DNA from: a virus
DNA: 35,824 nt
IMG/VR virus record: IMGVR_UViG_3300047668_001167
Span: 1-35,824 of that record
Strand: one strand, 5' to 3'
Shown here piece by piece: positions 2,222-14,661 of this stretch (its first letter is position 1; each line of letters opens with the position of its first letter). The notes under the pieces are model-generated. The model made no database searches. It worked only from the letters and a program-made list of their open reading frames with translations, and was not told where the DNA came from. The position numbers were made by a program, and so were the translations under genes.

Positions 2222-2607
2222 AACGCGCTAAGCTAAACCCAGACGAGGTATTATATGTCGTTGTAGGAAGCACCATGACCGCGCCCGATGAACCATTCAC
2301 GGATGAGGACGGGATGCACTTCTACATAAACGCAGAGGGGATTGTTACTACCCCAGTCGCTGATGACGAGCGAGGAAATTTTCTGCCCAGATACGCGCAC
2401 AATTCTATAGTGATCATAATCGAGGGCGGCTACACTGACGACGGCATACCATCCGCCACGTCATATTACAGGAACCAGCTAATGTCCGTAGAGGCCATCA
2501 GCAAGATGATGCTAAGAAAGTACCCCAACGCTGCACTAACAATGTGGCACCAGCTAAAAAAGGGAATCAACCCTGTACTGACACCTGAGGACATTAACCG
2601 TGGATGA
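2218..2607 (+). CDS. gp3.5-like amidase fold, zinc ligands lost (probable RNAP regulator)
   Basis: 129 residues aligning with T7 lysozyme (gp3.5, an amidase that also inhibits T7 RNA polymerase). Shared landmarks are GMHFYINAEGIV (T7 GYHFIIKRDGTV), YAHNSIVIIIEGG (T7 YNHNSIGVCLVGG) and the final helix-loop. The catalytic set is gone: T7 His17 is V15, Tyr46 is M33, His122 is W110, Lys128 is G116 and Cys130 is N118. The helix between the first strand and GMHF is shorter than in T7. The basic N-terminus (MKRAKLN) is kept; in T7 this end matters for polymerase inhibition. Inference: no peptidoglycan cleavage, but possible binding to the phage RNA polymerase. Start overlaps the HNH stop (ATGA). The fold call rests on a by-eye alignment. 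Confidence 0.7.
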   Translation: MKRAKLNPDEVLYVVVGSTMTAPDEPFTDEDGMHFYINAEGIVTTPVADDERGNFLPRYAHNSIVIIIEGGYTDDGIPSATSYYRNQLMSVEAISKMMLRKYPNAALTMWHQLKKGINPVLTPEDINRG

Positions 2608-4477
2608 GTATCAAAAGTTCATAGCCTCAAGCAGATACGCTAGGTGGCGTCCTGAGGACTCCCGCCGTGAAACGTGGAGCGAGACCGTAAAGCGCTACAC
2701 TGACTACTGGGATTGGAATGCGCCCGACGGGCTCAGCTCTAAGGATCTCAAGGACATACAGTCTGCCATAGAGGACCTCAAGGTTATGCCCTCCATGCGC
2801 TGCCTGATGACTGCAGGACCAGCCCTGACGCGCGACAATGTAGCTGGCTTTAACTGTGCATACCTACCGATAGATAACGTGCGCGCCTTTGATGAGACCA
2901 TGTACATCTTAATGTGTGGCACTGGCGTAGGATTCAGCGTAGAGCAGTCTGCAGTGGACAAGTTACCCATGGTAGCCGAGGAACACCACCTGACAGGCTC
3001 TGTAATCGTCGTGGCTGACTCTAAGATCGGATGGGCTACTAGCCTTAAGGAATTGTTAGCGGCCCTGTACGCGGGTTCTGTGCCCTCGTGGGACGTGTCC
3101 AAGGTTAGGCCACCTGGAGCGCGCCTGAAAACTTTCGGCGGCAGAGCCTCTGGACCCCAGCCCCTTGTGGATCTATTTGAGTACGCAGTGGCGACCTTCA
3201 GGAAAGCTGCAGGCCGCAGACTTACGGCCCTTGAGTGCCATGACCTAGTGTGCAAGATCGCTGAGGTTATCGTAGTCGGAGGTGTCCGTAGGTCAGCACT
3301 AATAAGCCTAAGCGACCCTAATAGCTTCGAGTTACGAGGTGCTAAGACAGGCCTGTGGTGGCTAGAAGAAGGCCAACGGGCTCTAGCCAACAACTCAGCA
3401 GCCTATACGCATAAGCCAACCTTTGAGTTCTTTCTCAGTGAGATGAAAGCTATCCACGAGAGCAAGAGCGGTGAACGCGGCATGTTCTCTAGGTTAGCCT
3501 GCGAGGCTATAGTTGCTAAGAACGGTAGACGTGAAACAGGACACGCTTGGGGTACTAACCCCTGCAGCGAGATAATCCTGCGCCCTAATCAGTTCTGCAA
3601 CCTGACTGAAGTAGTGATACGCCCCACGGACACCATAATGGACCTCACGCATAAAGTGCGCGTAGCAGCCATAATGGGAACTTTGCAGGCAACGCTCACG
3701 AACTTCCGCTATCTCCGTAAAGTGTGGAGTGACAACACGGCTGAGGAGGCTCTACTGGGGCTCTCACTGACCGGCATAATGGACCACCCCATACTCTCTA
3801 AGACCACTGACAGGTCTGCAGCGTGGCTGGAGGAGCTTCGTACCGTGGCTATATGCGTCAACCGTGAGTATGCGGAACGTCTAGGCATCAAACCGGCAGC
3901 AGCAATAACCTGTGTGAAGCCTAGTGGCACCGTGAGCCAGCTAGTGAATAGCGCCAGCGGGATCCACCCACGCTTTGCCCCATACTATATAAGAACTGTC
4001 CGAGCGGATAAGAACGACCCGCTGGCTCAGTATATGGAGCAGGCAGGGTTCCCATGTGAGACTGACGTTACGAAGGACAGTACGCTTGTCTTCTCGTTTC
4101 CCGTTAAGGCTCCCAAGGGTAAAACCGTGAAGGATGTAGGTGCCCTAGAGCAGTTGAAACTCTGGAAGCACTACCAGCAGCACTGGTGCGAGCATAAGCC
4201 GTCTATCACCGTCTACTACACGGACGACGAGTTCTTTCATGTGTGCGCTTGGATGTGGGATAACTTTGACCTGTTAAGCGGCATTAGCCTACTACCAGTG
4301 TCAGAGCATACTTACGCTCAGGCACCCTACCAAGAAATAACGCATAAAACTTTTGAGGCAGCTGTTAAGGCCTTACCATCGTTTAACGTAGCTGACTTGG
4401 AAGCATTCGAGAGTGAAGACCAGACCATAGGTAGCCAAGAGCTAGCGTGTGCTGGAGGATCTTGCGAGCTTCCATAA
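2600..4477 (+). CDS. nrdJ: class II (adenosylcobalamin-dependent) ribonucleoside-triphosphate reductase
   Basis: Converts ribonucleotides to deoxyribonucleotides for phage DNA synthesis, using vitamin B12 coenzyme. Residues line up with the monomeric Lactobacillus leichmannii enzyme: NCAYLP (C86, like C119), NPCSE (C322 thiyl cysteine and E324), FCNL (C333, exactly 11 after C322 as C408/C419), PSGTVSQL and the C-terminal swinging pair CAGGSC (C617, C622, same spacing as C731/C736). At 625 residues it is about 110 shorter than that enzyme, so regulatory insertions may be reduced. The start is GTG 2600, with GAGG at 2587-2590; the gene overlaps the previous stop by 8 bases. Class II reductases are common in marine podoviruses and work with or without oxygen. 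Confidence 0.92.
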   Translation: MDEYQKFIASSRYARWRPEDSRRETWSETVKRYTDYWDWNAPDGLSSKDLKDIQSAIEDLKVMPSMRCLMTAGPALTRDNVAGFNCAYLPIDNVRAFDETMYILMCGTGVGFSVEQSAVDKLPMVAEEHHLTGSVIVVADSKIGWATSLKELLAALYAGSVPSWDVSKVRPPGARLKTFGGRASGPQPLVDLFEYAVATFRKAAGRRLTALECHDLVCKIAEVIVVGGVRRSALISLSDPNSFELRGAKTGLWWLEEGQRALANNSAAYTHKPTFEFFLSEMKAIHESKSGERGMFSRLACEAIVAKNGRRETGHAWGTNPCSEIILRPNQFCNLTEVVIRPTDTIMDLTHKVRVAAIMGTLQATLTNFRYLRKVWSDNTAEEALLGLSLTGIMDHPILSKTTDRSAAWLEELRTVAICVNREYAERLGIKPAAAITCVKPSGTVSQLVNSASGIHPRFAPYYIRTVRADKNDPLAQYMEQAGFPCETDVTKDSTLVFSFPVKAPKGKTVKDVGALEQLKLWKHYQQHWCEHKPSITVYYTDDEFFHVCAWMWDNFDLLSGISLLPVSEHTYAQAPYQEITHKTFEAAVKALPSFNVADLEAFESEDQTIGSQELACAGGSCELP

Positions 4478-4488
4478 CGAGGATTATT

Positions 4489-5544
4489 ATGAAGACGATT
4501 ATAGTAGCAGTATCCTTTGCAGTCCTAGCAGGCTGTGGAGGCGGCGGTGGTGGTGCATTCGAGCCACGGACCGTAGTTGATATACCCCCAGTGGTCGTAG
4601 AGCCACCAGTTGTTGTGCCTCCAGTGGTCGTAGTACCTCCTGTAGTGCCTCCTGTGGTAATTCCCGTGGAGCCAGTACAGATGGGTAAGCCCACTGAGTG
4701 TCCCACTGTAGCGAGCGATACGGGCCTCCCAGAGTTCCCCTATATCACCTGTGACGGTGTGCCCACGAGTGGCCCCCAGAGCTACCCCTATGACCCTGAA
4801 AGCACAGAGATTGCATTGATCGACGTGTTGGCAGTGGTAGATACCAAGGTAGAGCTGAAAGGCCTGACTGTTGAGGAGTTCGTTAAGAAGCAGTTTGATT
4901 TTGCTAATGAGATCTATGCTGAGTCTGGCGTATACATCATCCTGCAGGTGGCGGGGATCCACATGGTAGACGTTGCAGCTGGTGATCTATTACGCCAGTA
5001 CAACTACTTCACTGGAGCCCGTGGTGAGTTCAGGGACTTGGAAGATGTGGAGAACGCTAACGACGCTGACTTCTCATTCTTGTTCAAGGCTAGGGCAGAT
5101 GATCCGTGGGCCTGCGGTGTAGCCTCACTGGCTACTGACCGGTCAGATCCTGAGAAGCGCAGAGGTGTATCCCAGTGTCACGTTGGTGAGGAGTTCAACA
5201 CCACTGAGACCACGAGGTACTACGAGCGCGCCAGCATCACGTTCATCCACGAGATGGGCCACCTGTTTGGTATGGAGCATAACATCGAGAGTGCAACCCT
5301 GACGCCCCTGTTCCCGTTCTCTTATGGCTACCTGCTGCCAGAGTACGAAGATGATAAGACAGATGAGTGGAATGGTTACGGCTCAATAATGAGCTACTCT
5401 GACAAGCCCACACACAAGGTGTCTGACCCTGACGCTACCTTCGAGATCCCAGAGCTGGGCATCGTGGTTCCTATGGGCAACGAAGAAGCTGATGGCGTTA
5501 ACCACCTCAACCGAGTGCGGTACTACATGAGCCAACTCAACTAG
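4489..5544 (+). CDS. secreted lipoprotein zinc metalloprotease (metzincin type)
   Basis: 351-residue predicted exported protease. The N-terminus is a lipoprotein signal with lipobox LAGC (C16), then a poly-Gly stretch and a Pro/Val repeat linker (PPVVV units, about residues 33-60). The catalytic domain has the long zinc motif HEMGHLFGMEH (H254, E255, H258, H264) and a downstream Met-turn SIMSYS (M301), which together define metzincins. ATG 4489 is chosen because CGAGGA lies just upstream and because the signal peptide begins there; an in-frame ATG at 4447 would add 14 residues before the signal. It would sit in the host envelope anchored by lipid. Substrate is unknown. Its place between reductase and small early genes suggests an accessory (moron-like) gene rather than a virion part. 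Confidence 0.82.
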   Translation: MKTIIVAVSFAVLAGCGGGGGGAFEPRTVVDIPPVVVEPPVVVPPVVVVPPVVPPVVIPVEPVQMGKPTECPTVASDTGLPEFPYITCDGVPTSGPQSYPYDPESTEIALIDVLAVVDTKVELKGLTVEEFVKKQFDFANEIYAESGVYIILQVAGIHMVDVAAGDLLRQYNYFTGARGEFRDLEDVENANDADFSFLFKARADDPWACGVASLATDRSDPEKRRGVSQCHVGEEFNTTETTRYYERASITFIHEMGHLFGMEHNIESATLTPLFPFSYGYLLPEYEDDKTDEWNGYGSIMSYSDKPTHKVSDPDATFEIPELGIVVPMGNEEADGVNHLNRVRYYMSQLN

Positions 5545-8251: not shown

Positions 8252-8451
8252 TGTATGTAATTCAATATGACAGGGAAGGTAGTCCTAAGAAGTCTGACCT
8301 ATCCTTTGCTACGCGCGAAAGCGCTATGAAGGCGTGGGATAAGTTCTGCGATAAGGCTATAGGCGGCGACGTGTTGACCCTTAAGCATCCTAAGGGCTCC
8401 GTAATCTCGCGGTACGCACCCGCTAAGGATGAAGACCGTGGTGTGGCGTAA
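8251..8451 (+). CDS. small protein of unknown function (66 aa)
   Basis: Starts at the TAATG junction with the primase-helicase stop, implying translation by reinitiation. The product (MYVIQYDREGSPKKSDLSFA onward) has alternating strand and helix segments and a Lys-rich character. No family recognised. The last 14 bases overlap the spanin-like gene. Confidence 0.6.
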   Translation: MYVIQYDREGSPKKSDLSFATRESAMKAWDKFCDKAIGGDVLTLKHPKGSVISRYAPAKDEDRGVA

Positions 8452-8839
8452 GACAGCCCTCGTGCTTCTCATAGCGACCCTAGGGGCCTGTGGCACACTA
8501 CCGAAGCTATCGTTGACGCCTATAAGCGCTGACGCTAACTTTGGGGGTCAACATGAGACAGCAACAGACGAGGATAATGTAGTTAAGGTCCAGACAGGTG
8601 ACAGCAGTAACGTAAGGTACGACACTGACACCGTGGAGCAAGTCTACAACGATATTCAAGAGTACCCTACGTGGTTGGTGCTGGCATTTGCATTCGCAGT
8701 TGGAATGGCCCTGCCGTCACCTATATCCGCATGGGGATCATACAGACGCCGTAAGCTGCTTGAGAGACAAGTAGAGATGCTTACCAAGGCCCTGTCTAAG
8801 AGTACCCCGCACTATCAATCTAATATGGAGAAGACATGA
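8438..8839 (+). CDS. small lipoprotein with C-terminal membrane segment (u-spanin-like)
   Basis: About 133 residues. An N-terminal signal ends in a lipobox LGAC (C18), a polar periplasmic stretch follows, then one hydrophobic segment (TWLVLAFAFAVGMAL, about residues 78-92) and a basic cytoplasmic tail with RRRK. A lipid anchor in the outer membrane plus an inner-membrane helix is the topology of unimolecular spanins such as T1 gp11, which disrupt the outer membrane at lysis. Start: an ATG at 8429 lacks an upstream Shine-Dalgarno, while AAGGA (8425-8429) sits 8 bases before GTG 8438, so I prefer GTG 8438. An o-spanin-type or unrelated lipoprotein remains possible. Overlaps the tiny membrane-protein gene by 4 bases. 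Confidence 0.55.
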   Translation: MVWRKTALVLLIATLGACGTLPKLSLTPISADANFGGQHETATDEDNVVKVQTGDSSNVRYDTDTVEQVYNDIQEYPTWLVLAFAFAVGMALPSPISAWGSYRRRKLLERQVEMLTKALSKSTPHYQSNMEKT

Positions 8840-11216: not shown

Positions 11217-11718
11217 GCCGTGTAGCAAGTGCAAGGCGGTTAAGGCTGTCACTGAGTTCCATAAGAATACTAGGGAGAGTAGCGGCCTAAGGTCCGACTG
11301 CAAGGAATGCAGGAAGCCAGTCCTCAAGTCGTACAGGGACTCCTTCAAGGACCGAGACAGGAAAGCGGCCTTCAAGCTAAGGTATGGCATCACTATGGAT
11401 CAGTGGAATCAGATGTTTATTGATCAGTGCGGACGGTGCGTGATCTGTGAGGTAGACCTACCCCCTATGGGGCGGGGTGTTCACACGGATCACTGTCACA
11501 ACGATGGCACCGTCCGTGGGATACTCTGCCGTGACTGCAACCCAGCCCTTGGAGCCTTCAAGGACAACCCTAACCTACTTCGCAAAGCAGCGGAGTACAT
11601 AGAAGATCATACGGAGAAGCAACATGGACAGACTTATGTGGATAGCAATACTACTCTTATCCGCCGCCGCTTTGTTGGAAGCTGGCAGAGCTTCTTCACA
11701 CGAGGCAGTAGTGATTGA
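11173..11718 (+). CDS. endonuclease VII-like recombination nuclease with N-terminal zinc motif
   Basis: 181 residues. An N-terminal zinc ribbon (C17, C20, C43, C46) is followed by an endonuclease VII-type His-Me domain: CGRCVIC (C86, C89), HTDHCHNDGTVRGILCRDCN (H104, D106, H107, C119, C122), then LGAFKDNPNLLRKAAEYI. T4 endonuclease VII resolves Holliday junctions and debranches DNA before packaging; a similar role here would replace T7 gp3. It starts at ATG 11173 with AAGGG about 9 bases upstream, overlapping the end of the polymerase gene by 44 bases. Its last 32 codons overlap the next gene by 95 bases, unusually long, and the tail after residue 148 looks non-conserved, so it may be a by-product of that overlap. 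Confidence 0.85.
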   Translation: MEKLRSEERGPIPTKPCSKCKAVKAVTEFHKNTRESSGLRSDCKECRKPVLKSYRDSFKDRDRKAAFKLRYGITMDQWNQMFIDQCGRCVICEVDLPPMGRGVHTDHCHNDGTVRGILCRDCNPALGAFKDNPNLLRKAAEYIEDHTEKQHGQTYVDSNTTLIRRRFVGSWQSFFTRGSSD

Positions 11719-11878
11719 CGTAGAGAATGGCAACGGTGTACTGGCTCAGATCTGTACAACCTATGCCTACACCAAGTATCCCAATGACCCCGAGAAGGCT
11801 CAGTTAGAAGCGCAGGCTTGCTACGACTGGGCAGCTGGGGAAATGTATCCTAAGGAGTATGTACATGGGCACTCATAA
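11624..11878 (+). CDS. small exported protein (84 aa)
   Basis: The N-terminus MDRLMWIAILLLSAAALLEA is a signal peptide or single membrane anchor, followed by a short soluble domain with two cysteines (ICTTYAY and ACYDWAA) that could form a disulfide in the periplasm. GGAGAAG just upstream supports ATG 11624. The gene starts inside the preceding nuclease frame (95-base overlap). No family recognised. Together with the next tiny membrane protein it may act on the cell envelope. Confidence 0.6.
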   Translation: MDRLMWIAILLLSAAALLEAGRASSHEAVVIDVENGNGVLAQICTTYAYTKYPNDPEKAQLEAQACYDWAAGEMYPKEYVHGHS

Positions 11879-11978
11879 GAAGGTTCAAGTAGTGACGGAA
11901 TGCCTCGTGTGTTCCGTGGTGACAGCGATAATCTTCGTGTCACTGGTAACAATAATCGTTAGCTTAGGAGCTGTATGA
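11865..11978 (+). CDS. 37-aa single-pass membrane protein
   Basis: AGGAG (11853-11857) precedes ATG 11865 by 7 bases; stop TGA 11976-11978. A short basic N-terminus (MGTHKK) leads into one long hydrophobic segment (LVCSVVTAIIFVSLVTIIVS). It overlaps the previous gene by 14 bases and the next by 4. The function is unknown; tiny membrane proteins like this are often exclusion or lysis-timing factors. Confidence 0.6.
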   Translation: MGTHKKVQVVTECLVCSVVTAIIFVSLVTIIVSLGAV

Positions 11979-12697
11979 TGCAGAACATTAGACTGGACTA
12001 TTACGCAGCGCGCCTTTGTATGGCAGCTGCAGATGACCAACCCATTGAGCGCCTAGGGAACCTGATGGATAACCACATCGAGTCCGTAGACATGGAAGGC
12101 GTCAGGGTCTACGTGGGAGACACACCGAGCCACAACGTGGCCGTCTTCCAGATGACACAGGACTTAGGTAAGGTTACCTTTCAGCAGATCCTGCAGTCCG
12201 TTAAGGACGCCCCTGTGGAGAGCAAGTTCAACCCGTACCAGATAGCTGAAGACCTGATGGACAAGTGGACCTACGTGAGCCCCGCGGCATTCTCTGCGGT
12301 CAACACCATCCACTACACGCAGGCACAGGATGACGGTAAGTCTAAGCCGTGGATGTTCTGCGGCCATGGCACTGGGGGCCAGCTGGCTCAGCTAGCAGCT
12401 GCTTCATTCATGCCTGCCACACTGATCACCTTTGGGTCTCCCAATGCTGGTGGTGATCTGCTGCTGGAGCAGGTGGATGATGCCTGCATGTGGACCCGAT
12501 GGGAAGTAGTAGGTGACTGGTCAGCTAAGCTACCGTTGCGCCTATGGAATACCAAGGGTGGATGCAGCCGGTACATAACTGAAGGTGGTGAACTTGAGCT
12601 TAAGCCTCAGTCTACTTTCTTCCGCCCGCAGGACTGGTTCCAGCGCGCACCCATGTGTCTCTATCACGATTGGATAGAAGAAGCCTTAGTAACTTAG
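11975..12697 (+). CDS. class 3 lipase-like alpha/beta hydrolase, nucleophile serine missing
   Basis: 240 residues with the look of a fungal-lipase (lipase 3) fold: the strand-turn-helix WMFCGHGTGGQLAQLAA (126-142) matches the lipase nucleophile elbow GHSLGGALA, followed by ITFGSPNAGG (151-160), which matches YTFGSPRVGN, and a late His in YHDWI that could be the catalytic His. The elbow serine is glycine (G132), with Thr133 beside it, so normal esterase chemistry is doubtful. No signal peptide, thus cytoplasmic. The start ATG 11975 overlaps the preceding stop (ATGATG). It may be a binding-only relative or use Thr133; neither can be decided here. Confidence 0.6.
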   Translation: MMQNIRLDYYAARLCMAAADDQPIERLGNLMDNHIESVDMEGVRVYVGDTPSHNVAVFQMTQDLGKVTFQQILQSVKDAPVESKFNPYQIAEDLMDKWTYVSPAAFSAVNTIHYTQAQDDGKSKPWMFCGHGTGGQLAQLAAASFMPATLITFGSPNAGGDLLLEQVDDACMWTRWEVVGDWSAKLPLRLWNTKGGCSRYITEGGELELKPQSTFFRPQDWFQRAPMCLYHDWIEEALVT

Positions 12698-13455: not shown

Positions 13456-13994
13456 GTTTAAATGACCCAACCCCTGATGAGTGGGACTCAGTGCGAGCAA
13501 TGATCAATGCTAAGGTGCCTGACCCTGAGTGGACCAGAGCTAGCCGCAGCCAGCAGGCACCGGTAGGTAGCCGTGAGTGGTATCAGGATAGGTCCCCGTT
13601 CAAGGAGGGCTTCTACAAGGGTGGTCGCAAGGTTGCTAAGTTCGATGGCAGCGGGAACCCTAAGGCTCGTGTGGGCTCCTTAAAGGCCCCTCTCCACCTC
13701 GTTCCGCCAGCCCTTAGCATTGGGGTGGCTTACGCTTTAAAGGACGGAGCGGCCAAGTACGGAGCTTACAACTGGCGTGAGGAGCCTATCAATGTATCTA
13801 CATACGTTGGTGCTATCCTGCGTCACCTGTACGCTTACCAAGATGGTGAGGATGTAGCTGAAGACTCTGGCGTATGCCACTTGGCTCACGTAGCAGCCTG
13901 CTGTGCCCTGCTGATGGATAGCAAGGCCCAAGGGTCCCTAGTTGATGATAGACACAACGGCCCTGCCGCTGGTGTACTTAAGGAGATGTTATGA
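13452..13994 (+). CDS. dATP/dGTP diphosphohydrolase-like protein (DUF5664, MazG-like)
   Basis: 180 residues. The region PLHLVPPALSIGVAYALKDG (80-99) then KYGAYNWREEPI and HLYAYQDGEDVAEDSG with HLAHVAACCALL (125-154) is the pattern of the DUF5664 family, described as an N-terminal dATP/dGTP diphosphohydrolase domain related to all-alpha MazG pyrophosphatases. It would trim purine dNTPs and so tune the pool together with the class II reductase. Relatives occur in Z-genome (diaminopurine) phages, but no PurZ is seen here. Start ATG 13452 overlaps the exonuclease stop (ATGA); a longer in-frame ATG at 13431 lies in that gene. Confidence 0.75.
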   Translation: MSLNDPTPDEWDSVRAMINAKVPDPEWTRASRSQQAPVGSREWYQDRSPFKEGFYKGGRKVAKFDGSGNPKARVGSLKAPLHLVPPALSIGVAYALKDGAAKYGAYNWREEPINVSTYVGAILRHLYAYQDGEDVAEDSGVCHLAHVAACCALLMDSKAQGSLVDDRHNGPAAGVLKEML

Positions 13995-14299
13995 GCGGCA
14001 TGAACCCCACACCGGACAACTACTTCGAGCCAGACCTTAGCTCCATCGTCCCACAGCAGGAGCATATAGTTAATATGTTCCCTGAGATGCAGTATTGGAC
14101 TCACCCCGATGACGTTAAGCACAAGGACAAGCCTGACAAGATCCTACCTCCCGCAGTGTGCGAGAACGGACAGCACACAGGCAACCCCCACTGCCCCGTG
14201 ATAGAGACACCTGACGTAAGCGCAGTTCCCCTGCCCGCGGCCATGTGGCTGTTTGCGTCAGCACTGATCGCTTTAGTATGCGTAAGGAGAAGGAAATGA
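13991..14299 (+). CDS. small protein with VPLPA/PEP-CTERM-like C-terminal sorting tail
   Basis: 102 residues. The last 26 carry a tripartite signal: VPLPAA (79-84), one hydrophobic segment (MWLFASALIALVCV, 85-98) and the basic end RRRK (99-102). This matches VPLPA-CTERM/PEP-CTERM tails recognised by exosortases in many Gram-negative bacteria. The N-terminal part (MSGMNPTPDNYFEPDLSS) has no classical signal peptide, which PEP-CTERM proteins normally have, so export may differ or the tail may simply be a C-terminal anchor. Two Cys (57 and 68) lie in the linker. Overlaps neighbours by 4 bases on each side. No other domain is recognised. Confidence 0.65.
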   Translation: MSGMNPTPDNYFEPDLSSIVPQQEHIVNMFPEMQYWTHPDDVKHKDKPDKILPPAVCENGQHTGNPHCPVIETPDVSAVPLPAAMWLFASALIALVCVRRRK

Positions 14300-14661
14300 A
14301 GCTGCCTGATACAGACATATCCCCACTGATGTGGATTGAGTTAGACGATGGTATAGGTGCTATACATAGTGCCACCATCATGTGCATCATACCGGACACC
14401 AGTGCGCCCAAGACCAAGAGCCTGATGATCACTACGATGTTCCCCGAGGGGATCACAGTGAAGGGCAAGGCCACGGACGTACTGATGAGCTGGTGGGAGT
14501 TGATCCAGCAGGGAGAGGATGAGGATGAGGTGGAGATAGAGCTAGAGGGCATGACCTACCAGACCATAGGTGACATAATAGCTGAACACATGGCTGAGGA
14601 AATAGAGGATGAGGTGCTGGATGTTAAGGTGCTGAAGCTGGTTCCTAAAGACGAGGAGTAA
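14296..14661 (+). CDS. acidic protein of unknown function (121 aa)
   Basis: Start ATG 14296 has AAGGAGAAGG just upstream and overlaps the previous stop (ATGA); an upstream ATG at 14245 lies in that gene. 28 of 121 residues are Asp or Glu against about 8 Lys, concentrated around GEDEDEVEIELEG (73-85) and EEIEDEVLD (101-109). The N-terminal half (SPLMWIELDDGIGAIHSATI) looks like beta strands. Strongly acidic small phage proteins sometimes mimic DNA, but no specific family is recognised here. Confidence 0.65.
   Translation: MKLPDTDISPLMWIELDDGIGAIHSATIMCIIPDTSAPKTKSLMITTMFPEGITVKGKATDVLMSWWELIQQGEDEDEVEIELEGMTYQTIGDIIAEHMAEEIEDEVLDVKVLKLVPKDEE

Follow-up and report, generated by a model that had tools for sequence, protein, structure and literature searches.

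PEP-CTERM proteins carry a signal peptide in 97% of cases (PMC1569441). The model proposed by Haft and colleagues places the motif of the C-terminal tail at the periplasmic face, the predicted site of exosortase action, and the basic end in the cytoplasm (PMC1569441). For the eukaryotic Oxa1-family insertase EMC, the limit on a translocated tail is about 50 aa, and the domains translocated by YidC are described as short (PMC7616256).

The window analyzed here is the whole 35,824-nucleotide stretch of the IMG/VR virus record IMGVR_UViG_3300047668_001167. An open reading frame together with profile matches identified in it a 102-aa phage protein, P0001 (13991..14299, + strand), with a CTERM tail at its C-terminus. 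P0001 resembles VPLPA-CTERM and PEP-CTERM proteins (TIGR03370, PF07589, TIGR02595) in its motif, hydrophobic span and basic end, and in a lead that is poor in K/R and rich in D/E. Unlike these proteins, it lacks the N-terminal signal peptide expected of an exosortase substrate and sits within a phage operon. EppA (NF046088), an EPS-associated small membrane protein, is likewise small and has a similar tail, but its model scores only 17.7 bits against P0001, over model positions 31-56 and thus the tail only, far below the 90-bit cut-off, which rules out P0001 as an EppA; no true EppA was found in 274 sampled genomes. In the open-access literature searched, we found no paper describing phage-encoded exosortase substrates.

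Results

P0001 is made from the replication/nucleotide operon of a T7-like phage, and its start position is firm. The ATG at 13991 is preceded at a distance of 5 nt by AAGGAG (13980-13985), and it overlaps, as ATGA, the stop of the upstream dATP/dGTP diphosphohydrolase gene (PF18909; 13437..13994, +), to which P0001 is translationally coupled. This gene forms the left border of a syntenic slot, whose right border is the downstream gene beginning MKLPDTDISPLMW (14296..14661, +). Upstream of this ATG the frame stays open for only three codons, which add GDV, and this rules out an earlier start or a hidden signal peptide. With a fixed start, no in-frame room upstream and an N-terminus that is not hydrophobic, P0001 has no signal peptide, as the sequence-only reading had remarked.

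Several other envelope-directed genes are present in this phage. They encode a lipoprotein-like metzincin protease (HEMGHLFGMEH, reprolysin-like; window 4447-5544, +), found here in a T7-like phage, a small protein with a signal-like N-terminus (window 11624-11878, +) and a lipase-like protein (GHGTGG; window 11975-12697, +). The metzincin gene is placed differently in the relative L103 (2204-3343), between the exonuclease and diphosphohydrolase genes. In the replication region, window 8429-8839 (+) combines a lipobox signal (GAC) with a single transmembrane stretch near the C-terminus, the layout of a unimolecular spanin. A class II-like ribonucleotide reductase gene (window 2600-4477, +; L103:4499-6373, -) varies in position and strand among relatives.

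P0001 ends in 24 residues that form a genuine exosortase-type (VPLPA-CTERM) tail in the gammaproteobacterial style, which was probably captured from a host-type protein. The C-terminus reads VPLPAAMWLFASALIALVCVRRRK, with VPLPAA followed by one hydrophobic stretch and then by RRRK as the final four residues, all three elements lying at the extreme C-terminus of the 102-residue protein (residues 79-102; 14225..14296, +). The match to TIGR03370 (VPLPA-CTERM) reaches 32.2 bits (curated cut-off 25.35, E 7.5e-8) and that to PF07589 (PEP-CTERM) 21.6 bits (curated cut-off 20.7), placing P0001 within these families by the curated cut-offs of two libraries. The layout of an exosortase substrate had been proposed from the letters alone, together with a profile search in which the lack of any hit was named as the refuting result; both models match, and the proposal stands. 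The hydrophobic transmembrane stretch, AAMWLFASALIALVCV (residues 83-98; 14237..14284, +), has a mean Kyte-Doolittle value of 2.5 over 15 aa. In an AlphaFold model built from two sequences, residues 81-101 form the sole confident helix (pLDDT ~80), and the N-terminal part has a pLDDT of ~50 or below. A chance match is ruled out by the behavior of the VPLPAAxWL DNA pattern, which appeared in 0 of 100 dinucleotide shuffles of the window and in just 8 stretches among 2.9 million viral contigs, 7 of them true C-terminal tails. The same VPLPA-CTERM model found matches in none of 14 control genomes at E<=1e-3.

The N-terminal part (residues 1-78; 13991..14224, +) is Pro-rich, acidic (12 D/E, 4 K/R) and predicted to be disordered. 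Two cysteines, C57 and C68, fall in CENGQHTGNPHC. This part has no relatives in GenBank phages, Pfam, PHROGs or the PDB, and P0001 gave no profile match among the PADLOC anti-phage defence families. No host homologue of the N-terminal part was counted; the three matches in bacterial genomes depend on the CTERM tail.

P0001 is known in only two distinct versions. The copy in L001 is identical, and those in L002 and L003 are 94 aa long, with a near-identical N-terminal part save for an 8-residue deletion, which together with an adjoining V-to-L change takes out all four lysines. The 70-residue lead of L003 thus contains 10 D/E and 0 K/R. At this phage's average composition, the binomial probability of such a K/R-free lead is 5e-4, and K/R-free 70-aa windows make up ~2% of all such windows in the phage's proteins; by the positive-inside rule, such a lead fits a predicted N-out orientation. 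In the tails of L002 and L003, VPLPAA.WLF and VCVRRRK are retained and the hydrophobic core drifts. Relative to L003, there are synonymous changes at V79, P82, A83 and L87, and five replacements in the tail, all at hydrophobic or variable positions; the chance of five replacements sparing nine motif residues is ~7% by hand calculation (C(15,5)/C(24,5)). The L003 version scores 27.8 bits against TIGR03370, above the 25.35 cut-off, and 20.0 bits against PF07589, narrowly under 20.7. A recombinational tail swap is not supported, since the tail differs from L003 by 15% at the DNA level, much as the region around it does (~15%).

The RRRK codons AGG AGA AGG AAA (14285..14296, +) are identical in L003. 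They also hold the Shine-Dalgarno sequence of the next gene (AAGGAG, 14284-14289, serving the ATG at 14296), and their conservation is therefore not independent evidence for the protein. Beyond the nearest relatives, the slot is occupied by single-span peptides without VPLPA, of 32 aa in L021 and 44 aa in L109, and it is empty in L103, whose two bordering genes directly overlap. Since these more distant phages have a plain single-span peptide or nothing in the slot, the CTERM tail is lineage-specific; comparison of the slot contents suggests that a small membrane span may be its older occupant.

No phage-encoded exosortase was found, PF09721 being absent from this phage and from related contigs. 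A search for the host by shared DNA, which compared 15 kb of phage sequence with 369 genomes from the class that includes the Methylococcaceae genome G009, identified no host; it yielded three weak matches of 30-68 nt, the 30-nt one of which lies outside any CRISPR array. The closest tails in bacterial genomes are those of ordinary CTERM proteins with signal peptides, from Methylococcaceae and others; the genomes concerned encode exosortase. The score of P0001, 34.7 bits against 33.7 for the best tail of the exosortase-bearing G009, lies in the range covered by genuine tails from this class. Tails above the cut-off occurred in 48 of the 274 genomes sampled from the class, and with the closest tails coming from exosortase-encoding genomes, an exosortase-bearing host is plausible by analogy.

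CTERM tails are not alien to phages; they occur on dozens of viral contigs, nearly always with signal peptides. The sequence-only reading had held that such tails are not standard phage parts, which is too strong, given that many IMG/VR contigs encode them, mostly with a signal peptide. The PEPxxWA pattern occurred in at least 120 viral stretches, some of which may include host flanks. From the 80 PEPxxWA loci listed, 83 tails were read, nearly all with a signal-like N-terminus as called by a simple hydropathy rule rather than by SignalP. Terminase-bearing contigs are among the carriers. Two adjoining signal-bearing CTERM genes, one of the FxDxF family, were found in both L005 (1173-2462, -) and L006 (695-1965, -), and the L005 contig also bears TerL, Erf and RecE-like genes. 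A further family comprises signal-bearing mini-CTERM proteins of 72-76 aa in endolysin cassettes (L314:9997-10951; L294-L300, L305, L306, L308, L312, L313). An ATGA overlap translationally couples their gene to that of a phage lysozyme (PF00959, E 4.6e-43); a lipobox (o-spanin-like) gene comes next and overlaps the mini-CTERM gene, and a holin gene is close by. A lysozyme motif lies upstream in 11 of 13 loci. The mini-CTERM tails score 25.0 and 22.3 bits against TIGR03370, at or just under 25.35. The signal-bearing viral proteins share with P0001 a phage-borne exosortase-type tail, but their leads are unrelated, and P0001 has no signal peptide. Given that many viral contigs encode such tails, the oddity of P0001 is its missing signal peptide, not the presence of a CTERM tail in a phage.

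A second signal-less CTERM protein is encoded by the terminase-bearing contig IMGVR_UViG_3300047471_000555 (L183:5173-5577, +), with 43.0 bits against PEPxxWA-CTERM (cut-off 35 bits). It resembles P0001 in lying in a tightly packed phage operon and in that its basic-cluster codons, AGAAAGG, overlap the next gene's probable ribosome site. It differs in belonging to the PEPxxWA class rather than VPLPA and in its unrelated N-terminal part. Homology of the L183 protein to the signal-bearing viral L284 protein (30%, largely tail) was not relied on.

Discussion

We propose, with a probability of roughly 45%, that P0001 is a lineage-specific inner-membrane protein whose host-type exosortase tail, inserted N-out/C-in, is offered to the host exosortase. 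The sequence-only reading, which is supported in part, had suggested that a phage copy could feed into, or interfere with, exopolysaccharide-linked sorting in the host. The RRRK cluster and the acidic, K/R-poor N-terminal part would direct insertion in this orientation, with no cleavable signal peptide involved. Such insertion would set VPLPA at the periplasmic face, where host exosortase could bind or cut it. The short disordered N-terminal part would then be retained in, or freed into, the host envelope, where its most plausible effect would be to modify the surface of the infected cell, for instance in superinfection exclusion. This proposal is consistent with the curated cut-offs passed, with scores in the range of genuine tails and with a motif that appears to have been kept through synonymous changes. 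The tail matches in genomes are normal signal-peptide CTERM proteins. By analogy, the repeated placement of such tails by phages on envelope-directed proteins, including those of lysis cassettes, points the same way. Against it stand the lack of a signal peptide, which 97% of PEP-CTERM proteins have, and an N-tail of 70-78 aa, long for YidC-type insertion given the EMC limit and the short domains described for YidC (PMC7616256). The constraint of the Shine-Dalgarno sequence on RRRK, the ~7% chance figure, the existence of two versions only and the L003 score under the Pfam cut-off also weigh against it.

The same lack of a signal peptide and the length of the N-tail (PMC7616256) would be expected if the tail were a C-terminal membrane anchor and nothing else, with a cytoplasmic N-terminal part acting at the inner membrane face and exosortase uninvolved. 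The Shine-Dalgarno sequence would account for RRRK, and the plain 32- and 44-aa single-span peptides without VPLPA in the slot of relatives indicate that a membrane span may be what was originally required. We consider this explanation doubtful, though a serious competitor: VPLPAAxWLF, kept through synonymous change, is superfluous for a plain anchor, and a periplasmic RRRK with the K/R-free N-terminal part of L003 would run contrary to the positive-inside rule. Alternatively, P0001 could be a decoy or inhibitor whose tail occupies the host exosortase, leaving surface or EPS-linked proteins undisplayed and thereby easing release or blocking later adsorption. P0001 indeed consists of little besides the tail and a short disordered lead, and the mini-CTERM proteins of endolysin cassettes are what would be expected if exosortase titration helps lysis. 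A decoy would, however, also have to reach the periplasmic face, and P0001 lies outside any lysis cassette, making this role rather improbable. The absent signal peptide, the varying contents of the slot among relatives and its emptiness in L103 could also reflect a captured host CTERM protein that has lost its signal peptide and is no longer a functional exosortase substrate. Such a remnant is very unlikely, as the open frame and ribosome site are kept, the N-terminal part is near-identical in L003 and the changes in the tail core are conservative.

Going beyond our proposal of an N-out/C-in exosortase tail for P0001, phages might possess a distinct class of signal-less exosortase-tail proteins that reach the host sorting pathway from the cytoplasm through N-tail insertion and exploit, titrate or jam exosortase during infection. 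Its two independent examples would be P0001 and the L183 protein, unrelated to each other, with the signal-bearing mini-CTERM proteins standing alongside; we regard such a class as unlikely. The occurrence of CTERM proteins in phages and lysis cassettes is a wider side finding that deserves its own study. A signal-less substrate would test whether CTERM tails are recognized without Sec-type export. If phages route proteins through exosortase or block it, they would provide a genetic handle on exosortase-sorted surface proteins in infection and lysis.
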